64,000 bases of DNA from an uncultured Bacteroidales bacterium (lineage in GTDB: Bacteria; Bacteroidota; Bacteroidia; Bacteroidales; F082). Location of the stretch: positions 1 to 64,000 of the forward strand of contig ONFO01000002.1 of assembly GCA_900317155.1 (NCBI GenBank), written 5' to 3'. The notes beneath the pieces were generated by a model. That model saw only the letters and a list, made by a program, of their open reading frames with translations, was not told the DNA's origin and did not search any database. The position numbers and the translations under genes are program-made. Shown piece by piece: positions 14,735 through 43,435 of the stretch (position 1 is the stretch's first letter; every line of letters begins with the position of its first letter).

Positions 14735-14794
14735 GTAAATAAAGCGATTGGGAGCGCGTAAAATCTTTTGAAAGATAAAAAAAGGCCTTTGATA

Positions 14795-15278
14795 CCATGT
14801 CATCCAGGCGCTCGGTTCAAACAGGCACTTGGAGCCATGTCATCCCCGCGGGAGACGGCGCGGCGGCTTGGGATCTATGGCTTCAAGGGCCGTCACAAAT
14901 GGGGTTTTTACTGCTTTGTCCCGCCTCCCATAGATTGACTACGTCGAATGCAAAGCATTTCCCTCCAACCCACATGCCTCTGCTGGAATGACATGGGAGG
15001 CTGAGACATGCTGCTTTTCGGTTTTCATGGGCCTGTAGAGCCATGCCGTTCAGGCGCTCGGTTCAAACAGGCACTTGGAGCCATGTCATCCCCGCGGGGG
15101 ACGGCGCGATGGCTTGGGATCTATGGCTTCAAGGGCCGTCATAAAAGGGTTTTTACTGCTTTGTCCCGCCTCCCATAGATTGACTACGTCGAATGCAAAG
15201 CATTTCCCGCCTTCCCACATGCCTCTGCTGGAATGACATGGGAGGCTGATCTATATATAAATGACATGGGAGGCTGAC
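14795..15278. repeat. Two tandem copies of a palindromic mobile repeat (family A)
   Basis: This gene-free stretch is two near-identical units of about 198 bp (about 14806-15004 and 15052-15249). Each contains CCATGTCATCCCCGCGGG, GGCTTGGGATCTATGGC, CCCATAGATTGACTACGTC and finally GGAATGACATGGGAG. CCATGTCATCC at the left and GGAATGACATGG at the right form terminal inverted repeats, and GGGATCTATG/CCATAGATT is an inner inverted pair. An extra right end follows at 15255-15278. No transposase is present. A shorter copy lies inside a gene at 35406-35512. Confidence 0.8.
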
Positions 15279-28099: not shown

Positions 28100-28119
28100 T
28101 AAGTTCCTTTCCTTTATTT

Positions 28120-28470
28120 AACAACGAAACACCCAAAATGTCCCGAAAGGGTATCGATTTTCGGGGTAATTCGCGTCTTTCGATGTTCTATTATAATATC
28201 ATTTTACGATGTTTGGGACCCATTCAAATCATTTTAAACAACGAAACACCCAAAATGTCCCGAAAGGGTATCGATTTTCGGGGTAATTCGCGTCTTTCGA
28301 TGTTCTAATATAATATCACTTTACGATGTTTGGGAACACCATTCAATTCATTTTAAACAACGAAACACCCAAAATGTCCCGAAAGGGTATCGATTTTCGG
28401 GGTAATTCGCGTCTTTCGATGTTCTATTATAATATCACTTTACGATGTTTGGAACACCATTCAATTCATT
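28120..28470. repeat. Three tandem copies of palindrome C plus the 3' end of fnlA
   Basis: Units of 117-119 bp start at 28120, 28237 and 28356. Each has the palindrome AACAACGAAACACCC...TCTTTCGATGTT, then a copy of the last codons of fnlA (plus strand TTTACGATGTTTGG and CCATTCAATTCATT). Only the third unit's tail is the true end of fnlA. The first two copies carry small changes, including an extra G that shifts the frame. Units are almost identical, so the duplication is recent. Confidence 0.9.
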
Positions 28471-35117: not shown

Positions 35118-36377
35118 TTATTTCATATTTTTCATAATGCAATCCACGATGTATCGCACATCCTCGTCCGTCACCCACGGACCACTGGGCAGACAAAGGC
35201 CTGTCTTGAACAGGTTTTCGCTAACGCCATTCAAGTAGGCCGGAGCATCCTTATAAACAGGCTGTAAGTGCATGGGCTTCCATAGCGGACGGGCTTCAAT
35301 GCCCGCAGCATTGAGGGCTTTGCAGAGAGCGGTTACGTCAACACCCTTTCCAAAGGTGACGGTGGACAACCAATAGTTGCTGTCGTATTTGTTGGCCTCA
35401 GGAAAGCATGTCATCCCTGCGGCTAGCTGTGCGGTGGCTTGGGATCTATGCTTTCCGTCACCGCCCATAGATTCCTTGCAATCGCACAAGCCTCCCTGAG
35501 AATGACATGGGCTAGGGTCGTTCGGTTGACTATAAAACTGCACGCCCGAAACTCCATCCAGCAGCTCAACATACAGCTGATGGACGTGCTTGTGACGCTC
35601 GATATGTTCTTGCAGCACTGTCATCTGCCCTCTTCCTATGCCAGCGCAGATATTACTCATACGGTAGTTGTAGCCAATCACCTCATGTTGGTAATGCAGT
35701 GCGTTCTCGCGGGCTTGGGTAGCGAGGAAGATGGCCCTTTGCTTGGTGGCCTCATCGGGACAGATGATGGCTCCTCCCCCGCTGGTGGTGATGATCTTGT
35801 TGCCGTTGAAGGAGAAGGTAGCCAGCGTGCCAAAAGTGCCGCAGGGCCTACCTTTGTAGCATGATCCCATTGCATTGGCGGCATCCTCTATCACAGGTAT
35901 CCCATAGCGGCAGCTGATTTCCTCAATGGCCTCCCAATTGGCGGGCATGCCGTAAAGGTCGACAACGATGATAGCCTTGGGCTTGCAGCCCGTCTTGGCC
36001 ATGCGGTCTTTGATGGCTTGTTCCAACAGGAAGGGATCCATGTTCCAGGTGTCCTTCTCGCTGTCGACAAAGACAGGCTTGGCACCACAATAAGTGATGG
36101 GATTGGACGAGGCGCAGAATGAAAACGACTGGCTCAACACCTCTTCGTCCTTGCCTACACCCAGCAACATCAATGCCAAATGAAGAGCAGCGGTGCAGGA
36201 CGACAATGCCGCAATGTTTTTATTGTTGCCCACAAATGCCTCCAAATCCTTCTCGAACTCATCCACATTCGGCCCGAGCGGCGCCACCCAATTGGTGTCG
36301 AAGGCTTCCTTGATGTATTTCTGTTCAAGACCTGCTTCGCTCATTTTGGCGAGGCAAAGATAAATTCGATCACGCAT
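35118..36377 (-). CDS. DegT/DnrJ/EryC1 aminotransferase, PglE-like, with in-frame repeat insertion
   Basis: PLP-dependent sugar aminotransferase that probably converts a UDP-4-keto sugar to the 4-amino sugar (PglE step, between the PglF-like and PglD-like enzymes of this locus). It starts at ATG 36377 (MRDRIYLCLAKMSEAG). It has NWVAPLGPNVDEFE, DLYGMPANWEAIEEIS, IEDAANAMGS and the PLP lysine in FSFNGNKIITTSGGG. Residues about 289-324 (from CHSQGG to GMTC) are encoded by a copy of the family A palindromic repeat, in frame, inside a C-terminal loop before KYDSNYWLSTVTFGKG. It otherwise looks intact. Confidence 0.9.
   Translation of the reverse strand: MRDRIYLCLAKMSEAGLEQKYIKEAFDTNWVAPLGPNVDEFEKDLEAFVGNNKNIAALSSCTAALHLALMLLGVGKDEEVLSQSFSFCASSNPITYCGAKPVFVDSEKDTWNMDPFLLEQAIKDRMAKTGCKPKAIIVVDLYGMPANWEAIEEISCRYGIPVIEDAANAMGSCYKGRPCGTFGTLATFSFNGNKIITTSGGGAIICPDEATKQRAIFLATQARENALHYQHEVIGYNYRMSNICAGIGRGQMTVLQEHIERHKHVHQLYVELLDGVSGVQFYSQPNDPSPCHSQGGLCDCKESMGGDGKHRSQATAQLAAGMTCFPEANKYDSNYWLSTVTFGKGVDVTALCKALNAAGIEARPLWKPMHLQPVYKDAPAYLNGVSENLFKTGLCLPSGPWVTDEDVRYIVDCIMKNMK
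35406..35512. repeat. Family A palindromic repeat inserted in frame in the aminotransferase gene
   Basis: The ends are GCATGTCATCCCTGCGG (35406-) and GAATGACATGGGC (-35512), terminal inverted repeats. Inside are GCGGTGGCTTGGGATCTATG and CCCATAGATT, shared with the two copies near 15 kb. It adds about 35 codons without stop or frameshift. Confidence 0.85.
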
Positions 36378-42885: not shown

Positions 42886-42963
42886 TTACATTCACCCCTC
42901 CCGCGTAAGGTTCTCCAAAAAAACCGCCGTCCATTCCTGCCCATCTCCGCACAGCGTTCCGGA
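42886..42963 (-). pseudogene. Second orphan piece of the WbuB-like glycosyltransferase 3' end
   Basis: Minus-strand translation gives PERCAEMGRNGR followed, after small frameshifts, by the equivalents of ENLTREG. It matches the intact gene's PERCAEMGRNGRQF. It lies upstream of the Cas2-like operon, mirroring the piece at 40244. Confidence 0.7.
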
Positions 42964-42987
42964 TATTGTTTTCCCAGCTATCTTAAC

Positions 42988-43435
42988 AATAATTACCATG
43001 TTATTTGACACCAATCTTTCATCAATTCTCTTTTCGTATCTTTCGTGTCTTTCGATGTTTAACTACAAAACTCTACACTTCCAACTACTCTACACTCTAA
43101 ACTCTAAACTATTCCTTAACTACCACTTTAATCATCTCCACATACAATAATTCCCACGTAATTTGACACCAATCTTTCATCAATTCTATTTTCGTATCTT
43201 TCGTGTCTTTCGATGTTTAACTACAAAACTCTACACTTCCAACTACTCTAAACTATTCCTTAACCAACGCTTTAATCACCTCCACATACAATAATTCCCA
43301 TGTAATTTGACACCAATCTTTCGTCAATTCTCTTTTCGTATCTTTCGAGTCTTTCGATGTTTAACTAAAAACTCTACACTTCCAACTACTCTAAACTATA
43401 CACTCTCAACTCTAAACTATTTATTAACCACCCCC
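42988..43435. repeat. Three tandem units containing copies of the glycosyltransferase 3' end
   Basis: Units start at about 42988, 43146 and 43290. Each has TTTGACACCAATCTTTC, then CGTATCTTTCGTGTCTTTCG plus ATGTTTAACTA, then CACTTCCAACTACTCTA. At its end is a copy of the last codons of the gene (minus strand YVEVIK...VVK-stop; plus strand ATCACCTCCACATAC). The last unit runs into the real gene end at 43417. The shared TTTCGATGTT piece links it to palindrome family C. Confidence 0.85.

Follow-up and report, generated by a model that had tools for sequence, protein, structure and literature searches.

A TGTC-tagged palindromic repeat lying in frame within a sugar aminotransferase gene and other genes of an uncultured Bacteroidales bacterium

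The aminotransferase gene and its insert

The window analyzed here is a 64,000-nucleotide (nt) stretch of DNA from an uncultured Bacteroidales bacterium (contig ONFO01000002.1 of assembly GCA_900317155.1). Its minus strand carries a sugar aminotransferase gene (35118–36377) that is interrupted, in frame, by a palindromic repeat, and the same repeat recurs between genes and inside other genes of the source genome. Labels beginning with G denote genomes (G000 being the source genome), those with C contigs, and those with L loci or open reading frames (ORFs). The aminotransferase ORF is open from 36392 and encodes 424 residues without interruption across the insert, in agreement with the earlier note on this sequence, which had seen neither stop nor frameshift; the consensus of homologues makes the ATG at 36377 the likely start. 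The product matches the DegT/DnrJ/EryC1/StrS family (PF01041, E 6.5e-94), with 1o61 and 4ztc as the nearest PDB entries by sequence, and the name PglE, given by the earlier note, is presumptive.

The insert consists of 129 nt, or 43 codons (35388–35516, minus strand, ends uncertain by a few nt), lying between the tyrosine codon at 35385–35387 and the aspartate codon at 35517–35519 and, in the protein, between ...GVQFYSQPND and YDSNYWLS. It is delimited by the sequence itself and by the insertion-free relatives L073, L075, L078, L080, and L095. The insert had been proposed to span 35406–35512 and to add about 35 residues; its being in frame stands, and the extent is revised. The two terminal inverted repeats that had been reported are present (CATGTCATCC at 35407 and GAATGACATG at 35500–35509), and instead of one palindrome they bound two 44-nt units that face each other head-to-head, both found by the unit scan, the pattern search, and alignment. 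Unit A (35407–35450, plus strand) has the arms AGGAAAG/CTTTCC, while unit B (35466–35509, minus strand) has only GCC/GGC. The resulting loop is 74 residues long versus 32 in 41 and 33 in 16 of 70 measurable homologues, a net excess of 42. The excess over the closest relative, L073 (same genus, 384 residues, 72% identity, loop of 37, no insert), is only 37 residues because L073 has its own five-residue extension earlier in the loop.

The insert splits the phmmer alignment to the best PDB relatives into residues 20–279 and 352/353–424. In an AlphaFold model built from 30 sequences (mean predicted local distance difference test score, pLDDT, 80.9; 220 of 424 residues at 90 or above), insert residues 292–333 score below 50, with block means of 26–37 and no secondary structure, and are flanked by strands at 284–286 and 343–347. 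As to a possible loss of gene function, the DegT/DnrJ frame is kept and the insert is predicted to be disordered. Alignment with homologues, as the earlier note had suggested, finds the unit in this loop in none of 109 other ORFs (110 with the window's own; at least two of the others are present twice), and L089 is the sole other ORF among them with a pattern match, elsewhere in its sequence.

The same loop has been altered in other ways. In L082 (G024) it holds a different in-frame palindrome encoding DRHAGLDPAS...GQARND (peptide DRHAGLDPASHEIAGQARND), which reads as a CGTC-tagged, REP-like dimer (REP, repetitive extragenic palindrome) and is missing from the near relative L081 (G003). The loop is also longer at this position in L098, L119, L142, and L091. 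It therefore seems to tolerate, and perhaps attracts, small repeats.

Sequence and structure of the unit

The unit is a 44-nt palindrome of the form TGTCATYCC-loop-GGRATCTA within an outer stem, and it occurs alone or as a head-to-head pair. Two intergenic pairs lie elsewhere in the window and, as the earlier note had recognized, belong to the same family as the insert. The first comprises 14836–14879 (plus strand) and a 67-nt unit at 14929–14995 (minus strand) with a nested insert of type AAATGCTTTGCATTCGACGTAGTC; the second comprises 15082–15125 (plus strand) and a 67-nt unit at 15174–15240 (minus strand) with the same type of nested insert. All four rest on the sequence and the unit scan, and the two plus-strand units also on the pattern. 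Sequence and motif count place a truncated terminus of the family beside the pairs (14796–14805, plus strand), and another partial copy lies near 15259–15269. The motif CATGTCATYC occurs eight times in the window versus 0.52 expected, a number reached in 0 of 100 shuffles, and 91 times in G000 versus 2 for the reversed control.

The structure is modeled on 48 units of G000 aligned with 12-nt flanks. An outer helix of 15 pairs, 12 of which fall within the flanks, is followed inward by the internal loop GTC/CT and then by the inner helix ATYCC/GGRAT. Altogether, 85.2% of the cells pair, falling to 30–44% when the partner strand is shifted by 1–3 columns. Compensation is seen in 224 cells altered on both sides versus 90.5 ± 8.2 after shuffling (0 of 500), while the number of pairs altered on both sides is by itself unremarkable in these units (14 versus 13.3, 166 of 500). 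Across 76 units, the arms pair at 8.49 of 12 positions within a unit versus 4.26 between units (0 of 5000), and in the 16 genic single units at 7.94 versus 3.88 (0 of 5000). The inner variable pair is T-A, C-G, or, in a subfamily on contigs C6, C34, C36, C39, and C40, G-C; an A-T form occurs in relatives (L296, L309).

Short forms of 24–26 nt and long forms with a nested insert are also found. The AAATGCTTTGCATTCGACGTAGTC-type nested insert recurs at one position within several units, and in L289, L310, and L391 as well, including within genes and in frame. The G-C subfamily, ATGTCATGCC...GGCATCTAT, is grouped in G000 at C34:6033–8448, C39:100950–101110, and C40:156052–158350. Short units of 25–26 nt with arms of type CGACCGTC/GACGGTCG or CCAACCCTC/GAGGGTTGG occur at C15:55796, C20:49217, C42:3959, C49:2679, and C35:55280; all except C49:2679 lie 20–37 nt from a neighboring ORF edge, and they are possible terminators.

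Copies in the genome and the genus

The pattern used to count copies, ATGTCATNCN{5,35}ATCTAT, has 78 matches in G000, while the same pattern reversed has none. Two of the 78 (C31:41951 and C40:113516) have no palindrome and are absent from the unit scan, which itself finds 78 units in 54 clusters. Scan matches at C6:3637 (72 nt) and C44:69046 (69 nt) were discarded as doubtful. A single recognized unit is present in 37 of 52 clusters, a count from which degenerate or nested partner units escape; dimers do occur, the window copy being one.

The earlier note had compared the insert to the in-frame palindromic elements of Rickettsia (RPEs), and it is no lone oddity, as the unit occupies 17 in-frame sites in 16 ORFs of G000, 14 of which have a Pfam match. 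The genes concerned encode two PMT_2 family proteins, MurL-MurD (two sites), PrmC, AroA, GH3, a GHMP kinase, a radical SAM protein, GH20, Mfd, the window aminotransferase, an FAD-linked oxidase, GT4, and GH77; L176 and L193 have no Pfam match. Where a name goes beyond a Pfam or PDB match it is the analyst's assignment, and the protein that we take to be MurL is so called from a reading of its VPVGGGKDS motif and the gene order. At three of the 17 sites (L176, L197, L200) the unit makes a C-terminal tail. Elsewhere it lies between domains: near residue 211 in GT4 (one domain ends at 204, the next starts at 230), at 148–162 in PrmC (99 and 175), from 349 in Mfd (256 and 492), and at the murL/murD junction. 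In GH20, structure 6q63 aligns straight through without the insert.

The remaining clusters lie, by position, between ORFs, some of them beside ORF edges. Four overlap doubtful ORFs (C39:101921, C40:156052, C31:22343, C34:6033) and are counted as neither genic nor intergenic. Two ORFs that span a unit were rejected as spurious, namely L342 (201 residues), which overlaps a longer ORF, and L339 (454 residues, minus strand), which is antisense to a ClpX-like gene; a third, L186 (173 residues), was rejected as genic, its unit being intergenic.

The intragenic copies are probably translated, since all 17 sites are open although a unit has on average only 3.25 of its six frames open (76 units); the sites were found through open ORFs, a criterion that favors in-frame copies. 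A protein made without the insert, through translational bypassing, is very improbable. In the mitochondrial genes of Magnusiomyces, translation bypasses blocks inserted in ORFs (PMC5009743), and such inserts have been called palindromic (PMC6649704). Bypassing needs neither the open frames nor the absence of stops seen here. By position, with no homology test, none of the remaining clusters was seen to break a gene's frame clearly.

The unit is likewise found in genes of relatives, so that the scan of this genome and its relatives proposed by the earlier note gives like results in both. Of 30 loci from the covariance search (two labeled as own, five without stated origin), nine have the unit inside an open frame of at least 250 residues, none of the nine being labeled as own; one of them, L249, has open frames on both strands. 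In the covariance-model survey, which scored up to 64 candidates per genome under strict filters, the family is present in 19 of 47 genomes of the same genus (three with 1–3 matches only), G000 being the twentieth of 80, and was found in 0 of 32 genomes from other genera of the order.

Filled, empty, and flipped sites

The source genome has many sequenced relatives, and filled, empty, and flipped states can therefore be read at the same site. At the GH77 site, 26 of 30 returned loci are readable, and 10 are filled (own included) while 16 are empty (for example, LNIKQLGIKEDAAFKRM) or other. The arms of the filled copies vary between species and are mostly complementary within a copy, pairing at 10.6 of 12 positions within versus 7.9 between copies (1 of 20000, eight distinct pairs). 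With a stricter anchor, which leaves three copies, the figure for coupled arms is 3372 of 20000.

At the AroA site, eight of the 15 readable loci (of 30) are filled and seven are empty. Units from nine of ten given genomes pair at 9.22 positions within versus 5.74 between copies (1 of 20000), with a range of 6 to 11 of 12 within copies. The first unit lies at an identical nucleotide offset in seven genomes, in antisense orientation in five and in sense orientation in two. In the flipped pairs G000/G090 and G065/G068 the 5' arm is nearly the same (13 of 14 bases). In aroA of G029 (L405), 17 nt of aroA coding sequence close to the unit reappear, inverted, on its other side as the 3' arm. In the own aroA (L391), the insert has undergone tandem duplication along with host codons, giving two PIDS units, the second bearing the nested insert, with the frame kept.

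At the first MurL site, 20 loci were read: 12 are filled, one of these with the unit inverted (G007), and eight are empty. At the murL/murD junction, murL still ends within the beginning of murD, in a different frame, in 13 of 18 loci, with the sequence ATGTTTGA in 12 loci and ATGTATGA in L317. The unit joins murL and murD into one frame in G000, G028, G019, and G021, and a variant palindrome does so in G024, where one TAA is reported inside the long match. The 3' part of murL also carries, in frame, a second repeat-like peptide (type STGSMTA...VPEPVEGPT) in L308, L310, L315, L316, L326, and others, and lacks it in still others. Judged by eye, filled states are scattered patchily over a tree built from three proteins of 26 genomes, as if the unit had been gained or lost several times. 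The mobility that the earlier note proposed is inferred from this patchiness of filled and empty sites.

These orthologous sites also bear on two other explanations. That the inserts are assembly artefacts or mark pseudogenes is hardly credible. The genome is indeed a draft of 65 contigs, but several further genomes carry the unit at these very sites, which contradicts an artefact, and the ORFs with the unit keep their domains. The hairpin could instead be selected for an RNA function, such as transcript stability, local pausing of translation, or termination, so that compensation in the arms would reflect that function. The strength of the compensatory covariation and the many intergenic copies near ORF edges favor such a role; it is nevertheless unlikely, because same-gene sites filled in some species are empty in relatives, the genes carrying the unit are unrelated to each other, and the apical loop ranges from about 2 to about 25 nt.

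Search for a mobilizing enzyme

Genes of the Y1_Tnp type, which includes the RAYT transposases, number three in G000 and are present in 22 of 26 hand-chosen relatives. One RAYT gene of G000 (L189, contig C23) lies 212 bp from a unit and is the only RAYT near one. It is ringed by a palindrome of its own, GCCTGCAATCGG...GATTGCAGG, with three copies (643, 1316, 1469), one of them within its C-terminal codons; a further copy of this palindrome lies near the G028 gene (L383). In nine RAYT-type loci taken from relatives the unit was not found. A REPtron, that is, a transposase gene flanked by its repeat, is thus not seen, the unit being present in one of ten loci, the own locus only; the RAYT motif was recognized in eight of the ten, including one in G071, a genome with no family matches. 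These results do not support RAYT mobilization. RAYT-type matches are commoner by eye in element-bearing genomes, a comparison confounded by phylogeny and by the hand-picking of the 26 genomes. The flanks of the unit are inverted repeats and the insertion ends are blurred.

An ordinary REP or miniature inverted-repeat transposable element might still be moved, together with its arms, by a Y1 transposase (RAYT or IS200 type) into existing palindromes such as terminators, in which case the pairing of the arms would reflect the choice of target. Consistent with this, five of seven short units (24–26 nt) are terminator-like in lying 14–37 nt from a neighboring ORF edge, Y1_Tnp genes are as widespread as described above, and a RAYT gene lies 212 bp from one copy. 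However, the arm pairs differ between species at one orthologous aroA offset, so that target choice would need repeated hits on differing palindromes at one coding site. The 17-nt inverted copy of coding sequence in L405 and the nine RAYT-type loci without the unit are further difficulties, and the empty aroA and GH77 alleles show no palindrome by eye, with no formal test. Target choice is an improbable explanation, if a slightly better one than selection for an RNA hairpin.

Relation to known palindromic elements

Rickettsia provides the best-known cases of in-frame palindromes. For Bacteroidetes, Bacteroidales, Prevotella, or Bacteroides no report of them was found among the titles listed by one open-access library, so the earlier note's statement that none was known for Bacteroidales holds to that extent, but CGTC-tagged REPs have already been reported in Bacteroidetes (PMC3733652).

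The closest known relatives of the unit are the CGTC/TGTC-tagged REPs defined by Di Nocera et al. 2013 (PMC3733652), which are described in five phyla including Bacteroidetes, have no associated transposase, and can lie within ORFs; the same source reports intragenic REPs in other organisms and treats the R. conorii repeats CGTC-1 and CGTC-4 as RPE-6 and RPE-4, respectively. Shared features are the TGTC tag, a stem starting with A-T/T-A, the imperfect palindrome, the occurrence as singles and head-to-head dimers, the location within ORFs, the absence of a dedicated transposase, and the presence in Bacteroidetes. All 48 aligned units have TGTC, a motif built into the pattern that collected them; the T takes part in the outer stem, and the G-T-C lies in the internal loop. 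The stem starts with A-U and U-A (columns 19–55 and 20–54) in 48 of 48 units, bases that the collecting pattern likewise favors.

By contrast, the stem has five conserved pairs (six in some short units) versus 8–9 bp in the CGTC/TGTC REPs, the loop about 2 to about 25 nt versus 4–5, and the tail CT(A) versus mostly CCA. The unit adds an outer stem CAT/ATG and copy-specific arms, and it is mostly recognized singly, with partners possibly missed, whereas the REPs are mostly head-to-head dimers. The unit is not filed in the CGTC/TGTC families because stem length, loop length, and tail differ. By analogy, it works like a member of them.

Other systems share single traits. RPEs are palindromic and lie in frame in many unrelated genes (reviewed in PMC10969869 and PMC2229807), and their 105–146 bp (PMC2229807) compare with the 129-nt insert of the window; they belong to another phylum, whereas the units here are 43–44 nt, mostly single, and vary in their arms by copy, a comparison made by description. 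Coding palindromes in Nematomorpha mitochondria (PMC6649704) also have matched arms and are gained and lost between species, and template switching has been proposed for them, but they are long perfect inverted repeats, and a dispersed repeated core is not described in the portion available. In yeast, template switching at inverted repeats homogenizes arms and inverts spacers in coding DNA (PMC8604942); there the repeats are short and eukaryotic, while here a dispersed bacterial element supplies the inverted repeat.

Proposed spread of the unit and reshaping of genes

The observations are best explained by a REP-like, non-autonomous, TGTC-tagged palindromic repeat that has probably spread between and inside genes, with its arms presumably kept complementary by template switching. 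The unit, single or as a head-to-head pair, would move into and between genes by an enzyme acting in trans or by another route. The copies seen inside genes keep the frame, often in loops, linkers, or tails. Template switching by DNA polymerase at the hairpin would then maintain the complementarity of the arms, lengthen them into host sequence, and flip the unit, although flipping may also result from recombination between the arms. This mechanism is suggested because template switching in yeast genes is reported to homogenize arms and invert spacers (PMC8604942) and because the same proposal has been made for mitochondrial coding palindromes (PMC6649704).

Several points count against this explanation. 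The assembly is a draft, and the search criterion favors in-frame copies. The permutation tests on arms take no account of relatedness, and the arms shared by many copies (GCCTCC, GCAGAAAG) imply that part of an arm can be element rather than host. Arm pairing is short in the aminotransferase (6 and 3 bp), reaches only 6 of 12 in AroA of G068 and G021, and falls to 8 of 12 in GH77 (L289); at the first MurL site coupled arms are unsupported (four copies with hardly varying arms, 6572 of 20000). Low pLDDT is not confined to the insert, as three further segments of the aminotransferase score below 50 (1–6, 197–204 with the conserved NGNK motif, and 227–235). No transposase could be assigned to the unit.

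A broader proposal, more tentative and a little short of an even chance, is that the repeat acts as a generator of protein-loop diversity within one genus. The REP-type unit would bring in an inverted repeat, and template switching would repeatedly transfer the sequence of one arm, together with host codons, to the other arm and flip the unit, in frame either way, changing enzyme loops by many residues and joining murL and murD. If so, loops of conserved enzymes could change many residues at once and neighbors such as murL and murD could become one gene. Apart from this proposal, the filled, empty, and flipped states readable at one site make the entry and persistence of such elements, and their reshaping of proteins, directly testable, and the family offers an example from bacteria of arms evolving in a coupled way within coding DNA and of gene fusion by a repeat.

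Other repeats and database searches

Nothing in the window attains the gathering score of any Rfam family, and a distant-mode search of 14784–15005 against phages and plasmids gave no match at E 0.001. The repeat search also detects three-copy direct repeats of about 114–127 nt at 28103–28452 and 42943–43371, which belong to a different family.
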